Shown here: piece after piece, positions 615 to 48,349 of the stretch
Layout of the letters: each line of letters opens with the position of its first letter
Position numbering within the stretch: position 1 is the first letter of the stretch
Assembly: GCA_003635185.1 (NCBI GenBank)
Contig: PYJA01000064.1
Location: 1 to 53,876 of the forward strand
From: Candidatus Poribacteria bacterium
GTDB taxonomy: Bacteria; Poribacteria; WGA-4E; WGA-3G
DNA length: 53,876 bases
Direction of reading: 5' to 3'
Made by a program: the position numbers and the translations under genes
Notes under the pieces: model-generated
Database searches by the model: none
Told to the model about the DNA's origin: nothing
What the model saw: the letters and a program-made list of their open reading frames with translations, nothing else

Positions 615-1679
615 CTATTCTGTACCACGTGGATAAGAACCGAGAATTTTTACATCACGACACAGATCCTCAAGATGCTCAAGAACGGAATGGACATCAT
701 CATCGTCTACATGTCCGTCAATATCTGCATAAAAGATGTATTCCCACGGTTTCGTTCGGGAGGGAAGCGATTCTATATAACTTAGGTTTCGTTGATGTTT
801 GTTAAACACCCCCAAGACCTCATACAAAGCACCAACTTTATCTTTAATTGCAAAGAAGATAGAAGTGCGATCATGCCCGCTCTTGCCAACTATTTGGTCG
901 CCTATGACAAGAAACCGAGTCGTGTTTTTTGGCTCATCCATGATGGAATCTGCAACCACTGGTACTTCGTAGATTTCACTTGCCAATTTACTTGCGATTG
1001 CTGCGGTGTTTGGTTCATCCGCAGCGCGTTGTGCGGCATCAGAAGTACTGACAACTTCAACCTGTTCCACTGATTTCATAAACTTATTCAACCACAATCT
1101 ACACTGTGCAAAAGATTGTCTATGTGAGTAGATACATTGGATTTCAGCAAAATCTGACTTTGAAATAAGATGGTGTCTGATCGGTTGATAAATTTCAGCA
1201 CAGATATTCAAAGATGTGTGGAGGAAACGTTCTAAAACGTCCCTGACAGTGCCGTGCACTGAATTTTCCATTGCTACCACCCCAAAATCAGCGCGTCCTA
1301 TTTCAACTTCAGTAAAGATATCACTTTGCGGTGTAATAGGAATCATTTGAGCGGAAGGACCGAAAAATGAAAGACTTGCAGTGTGTCCAAAACTCCCTGA
1401 TGGCCCGAGGAAAGCGACTCTATTTGGGGTTTGCACGGCTCGTGAAGCAGCAAAAATTTCAGCCCAAATTTTGTCAATTGCATCTTCAGGATATATGCCG
1501 AGATTCTGCGTTTTTAGGCGATTAAGGATTTCGTATTCACGATGTGGCACATAGATTTCCGTACCTGCATCGGCTTTTATGGAGCCTATTTTTTGGGAAA
1601 TCTCTGCGCGTTCGTGAAGCAGCTTTAAAATCTGGTCATCTATACTATTGATTCGATCGCGTAATTCTTTTAATTTCAA
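615..1679 (-). CDS. pheA: Bifunctional chorismate mutase/prephenate dehydratase (P-protein)
   Basis: Makes phenylpyruvate from chorismate through prephenate in phenylalanine synthesis. At 354 aa it has the usual P-protein length. An AroQ-type chorismate mutase helix bundle (about 1-90) is followed by prephenate dehydratase (about 93-268, starting VAFLGPSGSFGHTA and including the TSDAAQ motif). A C-terminal ACT domain (about 278-350) carries GALYEVLGVF and IESLPSR, the sites for feedback by phenylalanine. The first codon is TTG, with AGGGGA about eight bases upstream. The gene stands alone, and no other aromatic amino-acid genes lie nearby. Confidence 0.95.
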   Translation of the reverse strand: MKLKELRDRINSIDDQILKLLHERAEISQKIGSIKADAGTEIYVPHREYEILNRLKTQNLGIYPEDAIDKIWAEIFAASRAVQTPNRVAFLGPSGSFGHTASLSFFGPSAQMIPITPQSDIFTEVEIGRADFGVVAMENSVHGTVRDVLERFLHTSLNICAEIYQPIRHHLISKSDFAEIQCIYSHRQSFAQCRLWLNKFMKSVEQVEVVSTSDAAQRAADEPNTAAIASKLASEIYEVPVVADSIMDEPKNTTRFLVIGDQIVGKSGHDRTSIFFAIKDKVGALYEVLGVFNKHQRNLSYIESLPSRTKPWEYIFYADIDGHVDDDDVHSVLEHLEDLCRDVKILGSYPRGTE

Positions 1680-1958: not shown

Positions 1959-2204
1959 TTAACTATTCAACTTTTTCATGGCAGCAATCATCTCATCATC
2001 TGAGGGATTATTTTTTACCATATCAACAAATTCCTCAGCAGATATGTTATGTTCCTCCAGGAACATTTTGTCTTGCGGTCACGGATATATGTATTCACCG
2101 ATAATGCCTTGCAGTTTCGCGTTCGCTTTATCACTAATTCTGGCGAGCCAAGGAATGCCACCGATAATCATATCCCTATGACGTGGTTTCCAATCAAGAG
2201 ACAT
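1959..2204 (-). CDS. DUF5069-type small protein with in-frame UGA (candidate selenoprotein)
   Basis: The ATG at 2204 is preceded by an excellent AGGAGGTGA. The frame reads 41 residues including GGIPWLAR, then UGA at 2081-2079. It continues in the same frame for 39 more residues (PQDKMFLEEH, then ISAEEFVDMVKNNPSDDE) to TAA. I match this to DUF5069 from memory; that family has GEY-x-Y-x-C-P-x-D here, so the UGA sits at the Cys of that motif (residue 42). A hairpin of bacterial SECIS type begins 12 bases after the UGA. With UGA read as Sec the product is 81 aa. The alternative is a recent nonsense mutation in a pseudogene. The protein's function is unknown. Confidence 0.7.
2049..2066 (-). promoter_or_regulatory. 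SECIS-like hairpin after the UGA of the DUF5069 gene
   Basis: On the minus strand ATGTTCC, loop TGGA, GGAACAT forms a perfect 7-bp stem. The apical loop starts 20 bases after the UGA (19 bases between) and has G as its second base. Bacterial SECIS rules as I know them ask for a UGA-to-loop distance of about 16-37 bases, a short loop, and G among its first two bases. All three are met. Confidence 0.6.
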
Positions 2205-2397
2205 CTGTTTCACCTCCTCTCTATAATCGTAGCGTTTACATGTCTTGTTATACTATTTCTAAAAAATGAGACTTCATTATGAGATTATCGGTTCAAGCAG
2301 AGCTGAAAATGTAAGAGGCGCAATGAATTGCGCGACTACAACGCGTTTTTTGTTAATGAAAGGTGATCAATTAGAAATGGTATTATAAATTCCTTGA

Positions 2398-5300
2398 TTA
2401 CTCTTGTGTGCTTTCTTGAAGTTGTTTCAAGGTTTGCTCTAAGAGCCCAATATTTCGTCCGTATTCTGCCCAATTGCCGTTGCGTTGTGCATTTTGTGCG
2501 CTATTGTAGTAGGTGTTCGCCTGTTCAATTAGCCCGCGCAATGATGTTGCGGTATCTGGGAGTTCAGTTGCTTCAAGTGTGTCATCGACTGCAATTGTAG
2601 GTTCACTTGACAATCCTATTCTTCTTAAAAACATCTCTCTAAGCGCTTCATCAAGGGTTTCACCCCAGACAACATGTAGGTTGTCGTTCTCTTCATAGGC
2701 GACAACGACGCGGCGTAGTTCAGGAATTGCGGTTGCCTCATCTTCAGACTGAATATAAATTGGCTCAACATAGAGAAGTGCATTGTTCATGGGCATAATT
2801 AACAAATTACCCCGCAGCACACGTGTCCCTTGTGTATTCCATAAACTGATTTGCTGTGAAATTTCAGGTTTTTGGCTAATAAAGTTTTCAACCTGCATCG
2901 GCCCGGATACCAATTCCTGTTTCGGAAATCGGTAGACAAGGAGTTGGCCGTATTGCGGTAAATCACAGCGGGCGGCGAGCCATGCAATTAGATTCGGTTT
3001 ATTCCGTGGCGTAAACGGCAGCATCAACATAAATTCAGCCTTTTCTTCCCCAGGGAGCCTGAGAACAACATAGTAAGGTTCAACGGGTTGTACATTCCCC
3101 GGTAAACTTTTTTCTACTAAAGTTTGTGGGGTAAGCGGACTGGTTTGCTGAGGTGTAGCAACTTGTCTTGTTTGTGTGTCTGTATTGTCGTACAGTTCTG
3201 TGCCGATTTCCCATTGGTCTTCGCCGGCATAGAATGTGATCGGGTCTTTCATGTGATAATCTTGATAGACACGGGATTGGATAAGGAACATCGTAGTCGG
3301 ATAACGGATGTGTGCTTTTAATTCAGCTGGCATCTCATCAAAAGTTTTGAAAAGGCTTGGGAAAATCTTGCGATAGCATTCAGCAATCGGATCGCGTTCC
3401 TGTTCAATGAGGTAAAAATTAACTGTGCCATCGTAAGCATCAACAACGACCTTGACAGAATTGCGAATGTAATTTCCCCACGGTTCTCCGCCACTTTGAC
3501 TCACACCTCCCGGTTGTCTTCTCCGTTTGATAAACTCTTCCATTGAAACGGCATAAGGGTATCGGTGCGTGATCGTATAAGCATCAATTATCCAAACGAG
3601 TTTGCCATCATGAATAACAGCATAAGGATCCCCATCGTATCGCAAGAAAGGCGCGATTTTATGAATCCGCTTTTTAATATTTCGATCGTAAAGCACCTTA
3701 CTTGTAGATGTAATTTCACCCGGTAGAACAAACTTAATTTCATTACTAAACTTGAGCATGTAGACAAGTTTACGCCAGAAAGAGGAGAGTACTACACCCC
3801 CTTTACCTTGATAAGCGTAGTCCACATACTGTTGACCTTCTTGCGGATAATCGAACTCAAGTTTTAATTCAGTGCGTTCTGGATGTACAATGACGTACCT
3901 GTCGGTGCGTTCCCCGTAGTAAATACGAGGTCCGGGTTCCGTGTTAAACCTATTTGGCCATTGCGATTCATATTCAATGGGCGGTAATCCTCTGATGTAC
4001 ATATTAGGGTTACCGTTCTCAATTTCGTTCACAGGACTGACAACAGCTCCGTAACCGTGTGTATAAGTATAGGTCTGCTTATACCAATCATTTTTGACAG
4101 CATCGGGGAGTTCATTGATGTTTAGTTCACGTGCGGATAGCATTACCTGCTGAATGTTGTCATTGACAGTGTATCTATCAATGTCTACATCATAGAAATC
4201 GTACTGTGAACGTAATTCTTGCAGTTGTCGAAAAATTCTACGTATCGGTCGCCAATCCCAGAGACGAATGCTGTTAATAACAGGTTCGTTTTCGGGGCTT
4301 GTTATGTCAGTATAAGAAAGTTTCTCTGTAATCGGATATTCCTCTTCGGTTACCTTGTTATTCTCTAAACCGTAAGCATGGAGCGTTGCTTTGATGTTAT
4401 AGTTAATATACTTCTGCTCTAATACCTGTTTGTTAGGTTCAACACGCCATGTCTGTATAAGTTTTGGATACAATTGCCCAAGAAAACCAGCAATTATGAA
4501 CACGACAAACGCGCCAAAAGCAAAAGTGTTGCGCCGCAGGAAGATGCTAAGAATAAAAACAGTAGCACACAAAGCGGTGATAACCAACATAATCCATAGA
4601 ACGGGGAGACGTGCATTCATTGCAGCATATCCACCACCGCCTCGCACAACATCATTTGAGGTATGCAGCAAGTCAAACATGACAAAGCGATAGTTCCAAG
4701 CGCGAAATAAAAGCGTCAACCCTATAAGTGTGAACAGATGCGCTTTCACCCGGGCAGGCGGTTGAAAGCGAAGTTGGTTTGTTTCACCTGTAATTAATCC
4801 ATGGAAAAAGTAGATAATTACTGCAAAAATTGTCACCAACATGAAAATACCAAACAGTGTACCAATAATATATCGTTCCATTGGCATTTTGAAAACATAA
4901 TAGGCGACATCCTTATCAAAAATTGGGTCACGTGCAAGTGATGTAAAATACGCTTTTTGTCCGCTCTCTATCTGAATTTCAGTATCTAAGCGGAGACCTG
5001 AAGGGGTCGTAAAAAAAGCACTTTGTTCTTTGTCTATCTGAATTTGCGTGTCCAAACGCATAGCGTTTTCTTGGATATCAATAATTTTCGCTGTCTGAAC
5101 CTGTTGATCGAGATGAATTTGGACTGTGTCTCCAACTTGAATTTGCTTTGTATCTAATTCGGATCGGGCAACAGGAATTGCATTGGAATTGAATGATTCT
5201 TCAGCGTTTAGGGTGATAGGTGTTCTGGTAGCATCAAGAAGATTAACGACTTTAGCGGTTTGGGTTTCCTCACCGATATGAACGGTTACCTCATCATCAA

Positions 5301-5808
5301 TTTGTATGTTCTTTGCCTCAAGTTCTAATGTTGAAACAGGAATGGCAGTTGAGTTGAGACTGTCCTCTACGGCGATAGGTGTAGCGGACTGGAAGTTCAG
5401 ATCGTCAGCGTGAGTATATCGCAACCAGGTTTCCCATCGGGCGGTCGCTGAGTATCCCATTAAGATGCTAAAGAGGATTGAGAGCACCAGGAGTCCGCCG
5501 TAAATCGTCTTTCGCGTGTCTGTTTGTCCACCAGTAAATTCAGTGCCTCCCATGAAAGCAGGACTGAGATGTGCTGGCGTGAACCGATAGACAATGTAGA
5601 GATTTACCAAGAGAATAGCAAGGTAGGCAACTCCAACGATTATACCAAAGAAGATTTTTGTTGTAAGAATTTTGATATAAACATTGTCGTATTGCACCAT
5701 GTCAAACCATAAATAATCGGGATAAATATTAACCCAAGCGGCAAAAATCCCACCGAGAACCGCTAAAATTCCAATAATAATAATAAAACGTTTTACCCGT
5801 GATTCCAT
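2398..5808 (-). CDS. UPF0182 family integral membrane protein with a repeat insertion
   Basis: At 1136 aa it is longer than most UPF0182 (COG1615) members, which run around 900-1000. Strongly hydrophobic helices occur at about 8-28, 52-75, 103-122, 315-340, 358-375, 405-425 and 432-450. A large soluble C-terminal region follows, with family-like stretches such as YTHGYGAVVSPVNE and TMFLIQSRVYQDYHM. Residues about 145-293, just before the family's DPIF-x-KD segment, are extra. They hold two repeats of about 55 residues (151-205 and 206-261) plus a shorter third piece. AAGGAG precedes the ATG. Its role is unknown; the extra part probably faces outside the membrane. Confidence 0.88.
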   Translation of the reverse strand: MESRVKRFIIIIGILAVLGGIFAAWVNIYPDYLWFDMVQYDNVYIKILTTKIFFGIIVGVAYLAILLVNLYIVYRFTPAHLSPAFMGGTEFTGGQTDTRKTIYGGLLVLSILFSILMGYSATARWETWLRYTHADDLNFQSATPIAVEDSLNSTAIPVSTLELEAKNIQIDDEVTVHIGEETQTAKVVNLLDATRTPITLNAEESFNSNAIPVARSELDTKQIQVGDTVQIHLDQQVQTAKIIDIQENAMRLDTQIQIDKEQSAFFTTPSGLRLDTEIQIESGQKAYFTSLARDPIFDKDVAYYVFKMPMERYIIGTLFGIFMLVTIFAVIIYFFHGLITGETNQLRFQPPARVKAHLFTLIGLTLLFRAWNYRFVMFDLLHTSNDVVRGGGGYAAMNARLPVLWIMLVITALCATVFILSIFLRRNTFAFGAFVVFIIAGFLGQLYPKLIQTWRVEPNKQVLEQKYINYNIKATLHAYGLENNKVTEEEYPITEKLSYTDITSPENEPVINSIRLWDWRPIRRIFRQLQELRSQYDFYDVDIDRYTVNDNIQQVMLSARELNINELPDAVKNDWYKQTYTYTHGYGAVVSPVNEIENGNPNMYIRGLPPIEYESQWPNRFNTEPGPRIYYGERTDRYVIVHPERTELKLEFDYPQEGQQYVDYAYQGKGGVVLSSFWRKLVYMLKFSNEIKFVLPGEITSTSKVLYDRNIKKRIHKIAPFLRYDGDPYAVIHDGKLVWIIDAYTITHRYPYAVSMEEFIKRRRQPGGVSQSGGEPWGNYIRNSVKVVVDAYDGTVNFYLIEQERDPIAECYRKIFPSLFKTFDEMPAELKAHIRYPTTMFLIQSRVYQDYHMKDPITFYAGEDQWEIGTELYDNTDTQTRQVATPQQTSPLTPQTLVEKSLPGNVQPVEPYYVVLRLPGEEKAEFMLMLPFTPRNKPNLIAWLAARCDLPQYGQLLVYRFPKQELVSGPMQVENFISQKPEISQQISLWNTQGTRVLRGNLLIMPMNNALLYVEPIYIQSEDEATAIPELRRVVVAYEENDNLHVVWGETLDEALREMFLRRIGLSSEPTIAVDDTLEATELPDTATSLRGLIEQANTYYNSAQNAQRNGNWAEYGRNIGLLEQTLKQLQESTQE

Positions 5809-16640: not shown

Positions 16641-17390
16641 ATGGCAAGCGCAACAACCCTTACCACAGATTGGGGAGAGATGGCTTACTTGGATACTGGT
16701 GGTTCAGGTAAGCCTTTGTTTTTCTTGCATGGGACAGGATGTGATTCAGCGGATTGGACATCTGTAACTGAGAAATTACCACAGAACCAACGTTTGATTA
16801 CGTTTGATTTTCGTGGACATGGGCAGAGTAGCGTACCGACCAAACCTTTTACATTAGCTAACCTTGCTGATGATATTCTATTCCTTGTCAATTCAATCGG
16901 GATTCAGGAAGTAATACTCGTTGGGCATAGCCTTGGTGGTATGGTTGCAATGGAAGTGGCAAAACGTTTATCTTGTGTTGCTGGGCTTGTTTTGCTTGAA
17001 GGATGGACGAGTCTTTCATCTGCTGGCAGTGCCTTTGATACAGGGAGATTTTACGGTGCGCTCTCCCAAACAGAAAGGACAAGTATTCAGCAGAAAGCTG
17101 AAAAGACACGGAAACGCTTTAGACCGAATGTCTGGGAAAATTTTTGGACATCTGTCCAAGATTTCGACGCTTATGTTTATCTTGAACAGTCATGCATTCC
17201 TATCTATGAGGTATTTGGTGAGATGGGTAGGAATGAATTGACGGAGCAGAAGTTACGCATCCCACCTAATCCCAATATTGAGGTAATATGGGTACCTAAT
17301 GCAGGACACTATTTGCCGCACGAATGTCCAGCAGAGGTGGCTGAAATCTGCATTAAATTTGTGGATACATTTCATAATTGTTCCAATTAG
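16641..17390 (+). CDS. Alpha/beta-fold hydrolase
   Basis: 249 aa. The oxyanion region is FFLHGTGCDSADW, the nucleophile elbow is GHSLGGMVA (Ser near 97) and the catalytic His is in PNAGHYLPHE near the C-terminus. It belongs to the broad hydrolase family of esterases and C-C hydrolases; the substrate cannot be told. It begins 11 bases after moeA. Its stop TAG (17388-17390) overlaps the TAA of the convergent rhodanese gene, leaving no spacer. Confidence 0.88.
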   Translation: MASATTLTTDWGEMAYLDTGGSGKPLFFLHGTGCDSADWTSVTEKLPQNQRLITFDFRGHGQSSVPTKPFTLANLADDILFLVNSIGIQEVILVGHSLGGMVAMEVAKRLSCVAGLVLLEGWTSLSSAGSAFDTGRFYGALSQTERTSIQQKAEKTRKRFRPNVWENFWTSVQDFDAYVYLEQSCIPIYEVFGEMGRNELTEQKLRIPPNPNIEVIWVPNAGHYLPHECPAEVAEICIKFVDTFHNCSN

Positions 17391-18223
17391 CTTTCCTCAG
17401 GAATTTCAACCGGCAAATCCAGCCGGTCTCCCCACTCTTTCCAAGACCCAATGTAGTTACTCACTTTCGTATAACCGATAAGCCGCAACGCCAAATAGGT
17501 TTGGGAAGAACGGTACCCACCCTGTCAGTAGCACATTACCTGTTTTTCCGGTGTGATGCCTGCTGCAGCATACATCTCTCGGAGTTTATCAGCAGGTTTG
17601 AATGCACCAGTTTCATCAAGGTTGTTGATCCATTCTATATGAATTGAACTTGGAATTGCACCTGCGCGTTCTGCGCGGGCGACTCTACCGTAGTGTTCAT
17701 CATCTGTGCGTGTGTCCAAAGAAATAAAATTTTCTTGGTTTAGTGAGGCATGAATCACATCCGCATCCATGTGCGTTTCATGCTTTGCTTCTATCGGAAA
17801 TTCCGATACGTTGGGGGGTACAACGCCTTCTGTACTGACCGGTCCGTCTGCTGCTACCCATGCTTTATATCCGCCATCTAACACACGGGTCTTGGAATGT
17901 CCCAAACACTCGCAAAACCAGAGACCGCGAGATGCCTTCGTCCCTGAAATGTTCTCATACCATATAATTGTTTTAGTGTGATCAAGCCCCCTTTGTTGGA
18001 ACAGGTAAGCGATCATCCACATAAAAGTATCAAACATCTCTTTCCGAGTGTTGATGAGGCTTAAGCCGAACAGATCAAGGTGAAGTGCCCCTGGAATATG
18101 TCCGCTTATATATTCATGCGTTGGACGCGTATCAACGATACAAAACGATTCATCATTAAGATTGCTTTTCAAATCCTCAACTGAAATTACGAGTTGAGGA
18201 TTCACGTAACCTTTGTACGCCAT
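17387..18223 (-). CDS. Two-domain rhodanese with UGA at the catalytic codon (candidate selenoprotein)
   Basis: Thiosulfate/mercaptopyruvate sulfurtransferase family. The frame from the ATG at 18223 meets UGA at 17527-17525, then continues 45 codons to TAA at 17387. Read through, it is 278 aa, the normal family size. Domain 1 (about 8-145) contains VDTRPTHEYISGHIPGALHL and an inactive loop GTKASRG. Domain 2 (about 160-278) has DTRTDDEHYG and the active loop reading M-C-Y-[UGA]-Q-G-G-Y-R-S-S, so UGA replaces the catalytic Cys at residue 233. The post-UGA part (TYLALRLIGYTKVSNYIGSW) is fully family-like. The MATE gene is one base upstream. A frame ending at UGA would lack the active site. Confidence 0.88.
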
Positions 18224-36449: not shown

Positions 36450-37649
36450 TTACTCAAGGATCTTAGAGACAACGCCAGCACCGATAGTGTGTCCACCTTC
36501 ACGGATAGCGAATCGAAGTTGTTCTTCCATTGCGATCGGTTTCGACAGCTCAACAGTAATCTGCGCGTTGTCACCCGGCATAATCATTTCAATACCTTCA
36601 GCCAGATTCATCTCACCGGTAACATCCGTTGTCCGGAAATAAAATTGCGGACGATACCCACTAAAGAACGGATTCCAGCGTCCACCTTCCTCTTTTGTCA
36701 AGATATATGCCTCAGCTTCAAATTTGGTGTGGGGCATAACTGTTCCGGGAACCGCTAAGACCTGTCCGCGTTCAACATCATCTCGATCAATGCCTCGAAG
36801 TAGTGCGCCGATGTTGTCGCCTGCTCTGCCTTCATCAAGGAATTTATTAAACATCTCAACACCAGTGACAACTGTATCTGTGGTGTCGCGAAGTCCAACG
36901 ATTTCCACGGTATTTCCGACTTCAACGATACCCCGCTCTACACGACCAGTAACAACAGTGCCACGTCCGCTGATGGTAAAGATATCTTCAATCGGCATCA
37001 AGAAAGGTTTTTCTGTATCTCGAACCGGTTGTGGAATAAACTCATCAACAGATGCCATGAGATCGAGAATTGGTTTACATGCGTCACTGGTTGGGTCACC
37101 AGCAGATTCCATTGCTTCAAGAGCAGAACCTGAAATGATTGGCGTATCGTCACCGGGAAATTCATATTCGGTCAACAATTCGCGGACTTCCAGATCAACT
37201 AACTCAAGCAGTTCCTCGTCATCCACCATGTCTGCTTTATTGAGAAAGACAACCAAGGATGGAACGTTCACCTGCCTTGCCAGTAGCACGTGTTCACGTG
37301 TCTGCGGCATAGGACCGTCGGCTGCGGAAACAACCAAAATGGCACCGTCCATCTGAGCAGCACCCGTAATCATATTTTTGATATAGTCTGCGTGCCCAGG
37401 ACAGTCAACGTGCGCATAGTGCCGATTTTCTGTCTCGTATTCAACGTGAGCGGTGTTAATCGTAATACCACGTTCTTTTTCCTCGGGTGCCTTGTCAATG
37501 TCCTCATAAGTCATGACATAGTCTTTGTCAGCGAGTTTTGATAAAACCATAGTAATTGCTGCTGTAAGCGTGGTTTTACCATGGTCAACGTGGCCAATAG
37601 TACCAATATTAACGTGTGGCTTTGTCCTTTCAAAAGCTTGCTTTGCCAT
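36450..37649 (-). CDS. tuf: Elongation factor Tu
   Basis: 399 aa. Delivers aminoacyl-tRNA to the ribosome with GTP. G1 is [10 protein letters not shown]3 [12 protein letters not shown]4 NKADMVDD, and G5 includes SGSALEA. Domains 2 and 3 are complete, ending in [10 protein letters not shown]. It lies between fusA and rpsJ as in the classic str operon. Confidence 0.98.
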
Positions 37650-37828: not shown

Positions 37829-39940
37829 TTATTTTTTTGATGCCGTGTTTGAGATCAAATCCTCCGCAACGCTCGCTGGGACCTCTCTATAATGACCAAA
37901 TTCCATAGAATAGTTTGCGCGTCCTTGTGTCAGCGAACGGAGTGCCTTAACGTAACCAAACATCTCAGAGAGTGGCACATCTACCCGAACTACTTGAATA
38001 CGGGATTTTGCATGCATCTCTGTGTCTCTAATATGAGCACGCCGAGAATTAAGATCACCAATTACTTTCCCAAGGTACTCATCAGGGACTATCACCTCAA
38101 CTTCCATGATCGGTTCAAGTAGGACCGAACCTGCCTGTTTTGCAGCTTCTTTGAACGCCATTGAGCCGGCAATTGAAAATGCCATCTCTGACGAGTCTAC
38201 TTGATGGAAAGAGCCATCTACCAGACGAACACCGACATCCACGACAGGATAACCGGCTAAAGTGCCAACATTCATCGCATTTTCGATGCCTTTTTGAACT
38301 GCTGGGACGTATTCTTGCGGGATAACACCACCTTTAGTCGCATCCGTAAATTCAAACCCAGCTCCTTTGTCAAGTGGTGTAACTTCAATAACAACATGTC
38401 CGAACTGTCCCTTGCCACCGGACTGTCGGACAAATCTACCTTCCACCTTCACAGGTTTAAGCAGTGTTTCACGATACGCCACTTCAGGCGACCCTACATT
38501 GGCAGAAACGTTAAACTCTCGCACTAACCTATCCACAATGATTTCCAGGTGAAGCTCACCCATACCAGATAGGAGTGTTTGCCCTGTGTCTGGGTCTTGA
38601 TGAATTTTGAAAGTCGGATCTTCCTCAGCCAATTTTGAGAGAGCAAGATTCAATTTATCAATATCTGATTGTGAACGCGGCTCAACTGCCACCGACATAA
38701 CAGGTAACGGAAATACCATCGTTTCTAAAGTGATCGGTGCTTTAGGATCGCAGATAGTGTCACCAGTACTTAAATTTTTCAATCCAATCGCTGCAACGAT
38801 GTCACCAGCACTAACGGATTGATGTTCTTCCCGTTTGTTAGCGTGCATCTGCATCAATCTGCCGATACGTTCGTATTTTTCAGTGTTGCTGTTGTAAACA
38901 GTATCACCTTTGTTCAAAATCCCAGAGTAAACACGGAGATAGGTAAGTTTTCCAACGTGCGGATCAGTGGTAATTTTGAATGCAAGCGCACAGAATGGTG
39001 CGTCCTTGTCTGCGGAACGAGTTTCTTCCGCCTCGGTTTTAGGGTTAAACCCATTGAACGATTTAACATCTGTCGGAGCGGGCAGATAAGAGACAATACC
39101 ATCTAAAAGCGGTTGGACACCTTTGTTTTTTAATGCGCTTCCACAAAGCACTGGCACAACTTTGCTACTGAGAACCGCTTGCCTCAACCCAGTTTTAATT
39201 TCTTCGGGCGTAATCTCAACACCATCAATGTATTTCTCACAAAGTTCATCGTCCCATTCTGCGACTGCCGCAAACAATCTATCTCTATATTCATGCACCA
39301 TTTCTTCCATCTCTGTAGGAATGTCGGTTTCATGAATGACAGCACCGAGACTACCTTCGTCCCACAACTGTCCTTTCATTGAAATGAGATCAACAATTCC
39401 TCTGAATTGTTCAGCCGACCCAATTGGCAGCTGAATAGGTACGGCTGTTGTGCCTAAGCGCTCGCCCATCATTTCAACGGTTCGGAAAAAGTCTGCGCCG
39501 GTTCTATCCATCTTATTAATATAAGCAATGCGAGGAATTTCATATTTGTCGGCTTGCCGCCAAACAGTTTCCGATTGCGGTTCAACACCCCCAACTGCAC
39601 AGAATACGGCAACAGCCCCATCCAACACTCTCAGTGAACGTTCAACTTCAACTGTAAAGTCAATATGTCCTGGCGTATCAATGATATTAATATGGTGTTC
39701 TTTCCAGTTACAGGTAGTTGCTGCAGCGGTAATCGTAATGCCGCGTTCCTGTTCCTGCACCATCCAATCCATTGTGGTCGTGCCATCGTCAACCTCACCG
39801 ATCCGATAAACTCTACCTGTATAATATAGTATCCGTTCGGTTACAGTTGTTTTGCCCGCGTCAATGTGGGCCATAATACCGATGTTTCGTGTATGTGATA
39901 GGGCTGACCGGCGTGGTCCCCTCTGATTTTTTCCCGACAC
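37829..39940 (-). CDS. fusA: Elongation factor G
   Basis: 703 aa. Drives translocation with GTP. It starts with GTG. G1 is [16 protein letters not shown]3 [15 protein letters not shown], and G4 NKMD. Domains II-V are complete, including the domain IV and V region ([20 protein letters not shown]). The length is close to the bacterial norm. It lies between rpsG and tuf. Confidence 0.98.
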
Positions 39941-48149: not shown

Positions 48150-48254
48150 AATTTTCCTTTTAATCTCCTTGACATGCATTTCTATTCATGATAACATTAA
48201 TATAATTGCGTAATAGATACACTTTAAAGGTTTTGAACTGATTAGGAATATAAA

Positions 48255-48328
<74 letters not shown>

Positions 48329-48349
48329 ACATTATAAATAAGTTTTAAT

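Follow-up and report, generated by a model that had tools for sequence, protein, structure and literature searches.

An apparently undescribed family of predicted selenoproteins, DUF5069, in Poribacteria and other bacterial phyla

A small DUF5069 gene on the minus strand of a 53,876-nucleotide stretch of Poribacteria DNA (the whole of which is referred to here as the window) very probably encodes a genuine selenoprotein, a reading to which we assign a probability of about 0.96 on the strength of sequence comparison. The comparison, made across several phyla, shows a recoded UGA codon at a site that is otherwise Cys, a predicted hairpin downstream of it that is constrained at the RNA level, and the machinery for selenocysteine (Sec) in the lineage. 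The source genome (G000) is a Candidatus Poribacteria MAG of 4.57 Mb that is 81.7% complete; marine sponges are a known habitat of the uncultured Poribacteria. The DUF5069 proteins would thus be an apparently undescribed selenoprotein family that lies outside the usual thioredoxin fold and occurs in several bacterial phyla. UGA genes of this type are easily annotated as truncated, or overlooked, and the finding gives a testable handle on DUF5069. The features of the window that bear on the argument are as follows.

615..1679, minus strand: chorismate mutase / prephenate dehydratase gene, downstream neighbour (Pfam PF00800, PF01817, PF01842)
1959..2204, minus strand: DUF5069 gene, predicted selenoprotein; 81 codons and a TAA stop, with Sec as residue 42 in the motif GEYIYPUPQD
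2049..2066, minus strand: SECIS-like hairpin; 7-bp stem of 2066-2060 with 2055-2049, UGGA loop at 2059-2056
2079..2081 (2081-2079), minus strand: in-frame UGA, codon 42, predicted to be read as selenocysteine from the alternation of TGA and Cys across rows
2211..2217 (2217-2211), minus strand: Shine-Dalgarno sequence GGAGGTG, assigned from the sequence
2398..5808, minus strand (co-oriented): gene for a UPF0182 protein, upstream neighbour (Pfam PF03699)
17387..18223 (18223-17387), minus strand: rhodanese, the second UGA gene (PF00581, two matched stretches)

The DUF5069 gene begins with ATG at 2204-2202, is coding from 2204 to 1962 and ends with TAA at 1961-1959; reading 1959-2204 on the plus strand yields an unrelated frame, which was rejected. 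The first-pass annotation, made from this DNA by itself and naming no strand, had described a strong Shine-Dalgarno sequence, a UGA at codon 42 with an intact frame after it, and a 7-bp stem with a TGGA loop starting 12 nt past the UGA, with a UGA-to-loop distance of 19 nt and a G as the second loop base. All of these are present on the minus strand, the stem and loop at 2066-2049, and the third loop base is a G as well. The assignment to DUF5069 likewise proved sound, since the protein (scored with Cys substituted for the UGA residue) matches PF16798 with E=3.9e-14 and 53.4 bits, well over the gathering score of 27. The window contains the 12-nt core of the hairpin at a single place, and none of 100 shuffles contains it at all. 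With both strands counted, the window has 2035 TGAs, and six of them, the DUF5069 one included, are followed by a 7-bp stem without mismatch whose first two loop bases include a G; the hairpin fold has a z-score of -2.11, with 10 of 200 shuffles folding equally well. Because of these chance stems and this z-score, the hairpin in a single sequence is suggestive only, and it is the comparative data that decide.

The UGA is conserved to an extent that can be followed through three phyla. Among the Poribacteria the gene was found in 77 of the 84 genomes searched (in G061 as a partial gene only), and 71 of the 77 have the UGA; the six genes that lack TGA all belong to family f5 and have TGC or TGT at the site. 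In a smaller set of 59 Poribacteria genomes, 57 match, with 50 UGA and six Cys forms, the remaining match (G052) being a weak one to a paralogue that was therefore counted as neither form. Latescibacterota, the phylum of locus L144 (some records in our set bear the name Handelsmanbacteria and one MAG that of Gemmatimonas), have the gene in 43 of 64 genomes, 36 of them with TGA and seven with Cys, and the gene is present in 34 of 301 sampled genomes of Chloroflexota, three with TGA; the 13 Chloroflexota loci without TGA that were read have Cys at the site. Of 248 relatives found among genome records, the best 80 include 65 with Poribacteria in the title, the first 64 listed among them. When copies of one sequence are counted once, 145 nucleotide rows reduce to 90 distinct ones, of which 69 have TGA and 21 a Cys codon at the site, with no other codon seen. 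The in-frame UGA therefore aligns with the Cys of homologues, as the first pass had stated; all TGAs read occupy this same Cys position, and a set of 62 loci has U or C only, so that relatives with neither residue number 0 of 90 distinct rows and 0 of these 62 loci.

The hairpin is conserved along with the UGA. Of the 69 distinct Poribacteria rows, 68 have its core, TTCCTGGAGGAA, starting 15 nt past the UGA. In the remaining row, L069, the distance is 18 nt, since an extra codon shifts the hairpin by 3 nt, and the stem is retained through paired changes. The core is identical in all 69 Poribacteria and in 33 of 36 distinct Latescibacterota UGA rows (it is altered in L222-L224), and it is found in none of the 30 distinct Cys-form rows. 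For the Phe Leu Glu Glu of codons 48-51, 68 of 68 Poribacteria rows use TTC CTG GAG GAA. At 55 comparison codons, which lie outside 46-52 and have a main residue other than Met or Trp that is kept in at least 70% of rows, the majority codon averages 0.66, and one of these 55 is likewise invariant. Synonymous divergence tells the same story, with pS at 0.031 in the core, a count that includes L069 as misaligned by its extra codon, versus 0.61-0.67 in the other regions compared.

Pairing was scored in 51 distinct 24-base segments, in which 91.0% of the stem cells are paired. The covariation score is 0.284, a value attained by none of 500 shuffles (0.080) and by no slid version (0 to 0.116); two other measures, of pairs with two-sided changes and of further pair types, do not exceed shuffles. 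Because the rows had been lined up by TTCCTGGA ahead of the count, the core offers no independent test, and the three outer pairs do. Going outward from the TTCC arm, the first pair is G-C in 41 segments, C-G in nine and A-U in one, and is never broken; the next pair outward is U-A in 22, A-U in 15, G-U in five and G-C in three, and broken in six; and the outermost pair is formed in 26 of 51 and broken in 25 of 51. Comparison thus shows the predicted hairpin to be under RNA-level constraint, and the SECIS-like element proposed in the first pass has gained support from the constancy of the core, the covariation of the outer pairs and the absence of the core from Cys rows. The hairpin stands directly after the UGA and has a G in a small apical loop, features expected of a bacterial SECIS; the loop-G rule was applied by description, following the wording of PMC1088965. 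The three Chloroflexota UGA genes (L204, L205 and L206) have a different candidate hairpin, GCUC-GGU-GAGC, which was picked out by eye. A gathering-level Rfam scan of the window gave only a tRNA and nothing that overlaps the gene, and a permissive scan of 1900-2300 gave two matches (E 7 and 8.8) that fall far below gathering.

Sec machinery accompanies the UGA form, with SelA found in all three phyla. The 50 Poribacteria UGA genomes have SelA in 45, SelB over the curated cut-off in 47 and tRNA-Sec (counted at 70 bits or more) in 45, which answers the suggestion, made in the first pass, that co-occurrence with Sec genes be checked. All three are missing in just two of the 50, G000 itself (81.7% complete) and G010 (73%). 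The absence of SelB, which had been named as evidence against the selenoprotein reading, is thus literally the case in the MAG of the window, which gave no SelA and in which neither SelB nor tRNA-Sec passed the cut-off, and does not hold for the lineage; we ascribe the missing machinery in G000 to the incompleteness of that genome. G004, which encodes a DUF5069 protein with no residue different from that of the window, has SelA, SelB and tRNA-Sec, and ARAGORN called tRNA-SeC (tca) in five of the five tRNA-Sec loci tried. Two genomes of family f6, which have neither the gene nor SelA/SelB, gave tRNA-Sec matches of 47-50 bits that only just attain the cut-off and are taken for chance. SelA was detected in all 36 Latescibacterota UGA genomes (in G136 as a fragment below the cut-off), in six of seven Cys-form genomes and in four of 21 that lack the gene, and in Chloroflexota it was detected in three of three UGA genomes and in 12 of the 13 Cys-form genomes tested, these form-wise counts for the two phyla coming from 80 genomes. 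Five of six Poribacteria Cys-form genomes have SelA as well. Cys-form genomes therefore also retain Sec machinery, and the machinery alone does not predict the UGA form. In the window, SelB-profile matches below the SelB cut-off lie at 36450-37649 and 37829-39940 on the minus strand, in genes that we take to encode EF-Tu- and EF-G-like elongation factors, and a tRNA-Arg (CCG) at 48254-48329 (minus strand) is the sole tRNA found.

It might be supposed that the UGA results from a mistake in sequencing or assembly, or that the gene is decaying and has newly acquired a nonsense mutation, and the lack of detectable Sec machinery in the MAG of the window would suit such a view. The same UGA is nevertheless found in 71 Poribacteria, 36 Latescibacterota and three Chloroflexota genomes, and this conservation already refutes error or decay, to which we attach next to no probability. 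Selection on the protein points the same way: pooled pairwise pN/pS among the 69 Poribacteria rows takes the value 0.128 for the part before the UGA, 0.210 for the part after it and 0.233 for the part beyond the hairpin, so that, judged from these ratios, purifying selection acts on the sequence past the UGA. In every one of the 69 distinct rows a single internal UGA is followed by open frame up to a terminal stop, an SD-like motif stands at most 20 nt upstream in all 69, and the further disabling mutations expected of a decaying gene were not seen in any of them. The somewhat higher ratio beyond the hairpin than before the UGA could be held to favor the UGA as a true stop, with the first 41 residues as the functional product. 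Against this, the later part is constrained and aligns with the Cys forms, and the synonymous sites of the hairpin are frozen, which leaves termination at codon 42 with the same negligible probability as error or decay. Hardly more credible is the proposal that a reassigned or suppressor tRNA reads the UGA as Cys, Trp or Gly. Cys is indeed the alternative residue at the site. The terminal stops of the 69 rows, however, are TAG in 36, TAA in 30 and TGA in three (a TGA past codon 55 being taken as terminal), and these three genes, with a terminal TGA besides the internal UGA, indicate that UGA appears still to be a stop; moreover, tRNA-SeC, SelA and SelB occur in the lineage, and reassignment offers no obvious role for the conserved hairpin downstream.

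The selenoprotein reading, which is accordingly preferred for the UGA, would work as follows. When the ribosome arrives at UGA codon 42 of the DUF5069 mRNA, the hairpin 12 nt downstream would be bound by SelB carrying Sec-tRNA(Sec), and the UGA would be recoded as selenocysteine. The product would be a single-domain protein of 81 residues that contains one Sec and lacks Cys elsewhere. In UGA at a family Cys, a hairpin with a loop G and Sec machinery in the lineage, the gene resembles the SECIS-dependent selenoproteins known from bacteria. An AlphaFold model of the window protein (pLDDT 88.7, pTM 0.76) has four helices, with Sec42 directly before helix 43-51. Foldseek returned a single PDB match with E below 0.001, namely 3OMD from Leptospirillum rubarum (TM 0.84, E 3.1e-4), the other nine rows having E of 4.3 or more; 3OMD is titled 'unknown function' and is the sole solved DUF5069 structure that we found. 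The profile match over the gathering score and this superposition both place the window protein with PF16798, which includes 3OMD. It differs from 3OMD, and from a 139-residue form in L271, in that these have Cys at the site whereas the window protein has Sec in a short single domain. Neither a thioredoxin-like fold nor a UxxC/CxxU partner was found in the window protein by Foldseek on the model and by motif check. None of the 69 Poribacteria rows and none of the three Chloroflexota rows has a further Cys, the motif being UxxD; 15 of 36 Latescibacterota rows lack another Cys and 21 of 36 have one, at one of two places. With no other Cys and a UxxD motif, the likeliest chemistry would be a single-residue selenol center, acting in redox or as a nucleophile and dependent on an outside thiol reductant such as a glutaredoxin/thioredoxin system. 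We give roughly even odds to a redox role for DUF5069, for which we draw on a gene neighbour in one family and on general knowledge of selenoproteins. A larger paralogue is encoded at L268:882-2165 (minus strand) on G000 C124, with 427 residues and three DUF5069-like repeats, none of which has Cys at the Sec position.

The gene neighbour in question, upstream and on the same strand, is a glutaredoxin-thioredoxin reductase fusion whose end is separated from the ATG by 24-32 nt in the three Poribacteria loci of family f3 (L066, L067 and L068, which are the same as L140, L141 and L137; Pfam was run on one of the three). In the window the prephenate dehydratase gene is co-oriented with the DUF5069 gene across a gap of about 280 nt. 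That gene lies downstream in 73, and the UPF0182 gene upstream in 65, of the 85 Poribacteria loci examined, and the two appear to be neighbours only. Outside the Poribacteria, an ORF of about 350 residues that resembles a kinase stands just upstream of the Cys or the Sec form in 28 of 47 loci, made up of 12 of 15 (L143-L147 and L149-L158), the three Chloroflexota UGA loci, 12 of 28 Latescibacterota UGA loci, and L235; its carriers include L204-L206, L216-L221 and L143-L147. Six of these ORFs have invariant Lys, Glu, Asp and Asn, and weak profile matches lead to corramycin phosphotransferase and to a putative fructosamine-3-kinase; no Pfam family exceeds the cut-off in the five tested. A model made from a six-row alignment has an APH-kinase fold (pLDDT 83.8), and Foldseek of the model gives query TM values of 0.26-0.54 at 8-20% identity among the 50 rows shown. 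A literature search linking fructosamine-3-kinase, redox and selenoproteins gave nothing on bacteria, as judged from its listing.

These neighbours and the distribution of SelA bear on two other proposals for what DUF5069 does. One is that it serves as a redox partner or regulator of the upstream kinase in other phyla, as its frequent position next to that ORF and the fold match to APH-type kinases might suggest; the ORF, however, adjoins the gene in none of the 85 Poribacteria loci (the upstream sequence being short in some) and is missing in 16 of 28 Latescibacterota UGA loci, and we consider a kinase partnership improbable. A slightly poorer prospect still is that DUF5069 handles selenium, as a carrier or donor for Sec synthesis, and so is tied to the Sec trait even as a Cys form. 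It is true that SelA occurs in 42 of 43 Latescibacterota genomes with the gene versus four of 21 without, and in 33 of 34 versus 211 of 267 of the 301 Chloroflexota genomes. Phylogeny and genome size are both confounders of this association, Chloroflexota commonly have SelA in any case, and no sel gene is present among the identified neighbour ORFs of the partially annotated loci; the Chloroflexota association is in fact too confounded for us to claim a service of DUF5069 to the Sec trait.

A tree of 81 rows, made with the Sec/Cys column masked and after dropping rows that were short or more than 95% identical to a kept row, separates Poribacteria (94/80) and Latescibacterota (99/89) each from all other rows by a branch and unites the two (100/95). 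The alignment is short (84 columns) and many forks are left open; the Sec/Cys trait changes at least four times on the tree. The hairpin common to Poribacteria and Latescibacterota fits a Sec-bearing ancestor with later changes to Cys, and the different candidate hairpin of the Chloroflexota fits a separate gain, so that Sec was possibly gained independently there. Putting these strands together, one may tentatively picture DUF5069 as founding a class of selenoenzymes without the thioredoxin fold, small and helical with a single UxxD Sec, in which Sec was present in the ancestor of the Poribacteria and Latescibacterota genes, was lost to Cys in some lineages and was regained in Chloroflexota with another hairpin, and whose partners are glutaredoxin/thioredoxin reductase or, elsewhere, an APH-fold kinase; the class would help to explain the Sec machinery of sponge symbionts. 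As a whole this picture is possible, and on balance rather doubtful.

The family also appears to be new as a selenoprotein, within a kind (selenoproteins) that is itself well known. Our literature search found no mention of DUF5069 and no report of a Poribacteria selenoprotein, the Poribacteria selenocysteine passages that came up being concerned with other matters; a search for structure 3OMD gave nothing relevant, judged by titles. PF16798 is not among the 119 prokaryotic families in the PMC13188914 (2026) selenoprotein table, and relative to the families tabulated there DUF5069 is set apart by the lack of a thioredoxin fold and of UxxC/CxxU. An NCBIfam scan (E up to 1) found no match for the window protein, and for a Cys-form relative there was one sub-threshold match (E 0.083), to a peptidylprolyl isomerase model. 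An ocean survey of 2008 (PMC2398784) includes a 'hypothetical protein GOS_A' with two sequences that are not displayed in its text, and DUF5069 may be the same as GOS_A. The claim of the first pass that the family is undescribed holds within the literature, the 119-family table and the NCBIfam models searched.

The second UGA-at-Cys gene, cited earlier in support of the first, is real and lies on the minus strand as well. Its UGA, at 17527-17525 (minus strand), is in the motif CYUQGGYR, at what is presumably the active-site Cys position of rhodanese. Among 58 genomes 47 match, with TGA in 44 of the 47; the three without TGA belong to family f3. The UGA is constant, and in the 30 loci read we found no single shared hairpin. 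Rhodanese-like selenoproteins of UxxG and UxxS forms appear in the PMC13188914 table, with which the window gene agrees in having UGA at the active-site Cys; it is thus a candidate of an already known selenoprotein kind rather than a novelty. According to a metagenome study (PMC5649159), SelA/SelB are present in most sponge symbiont bins and not in most of their relatives, and the DUF5069 gene and the rhodanese would be two concrete uses for this machinery.
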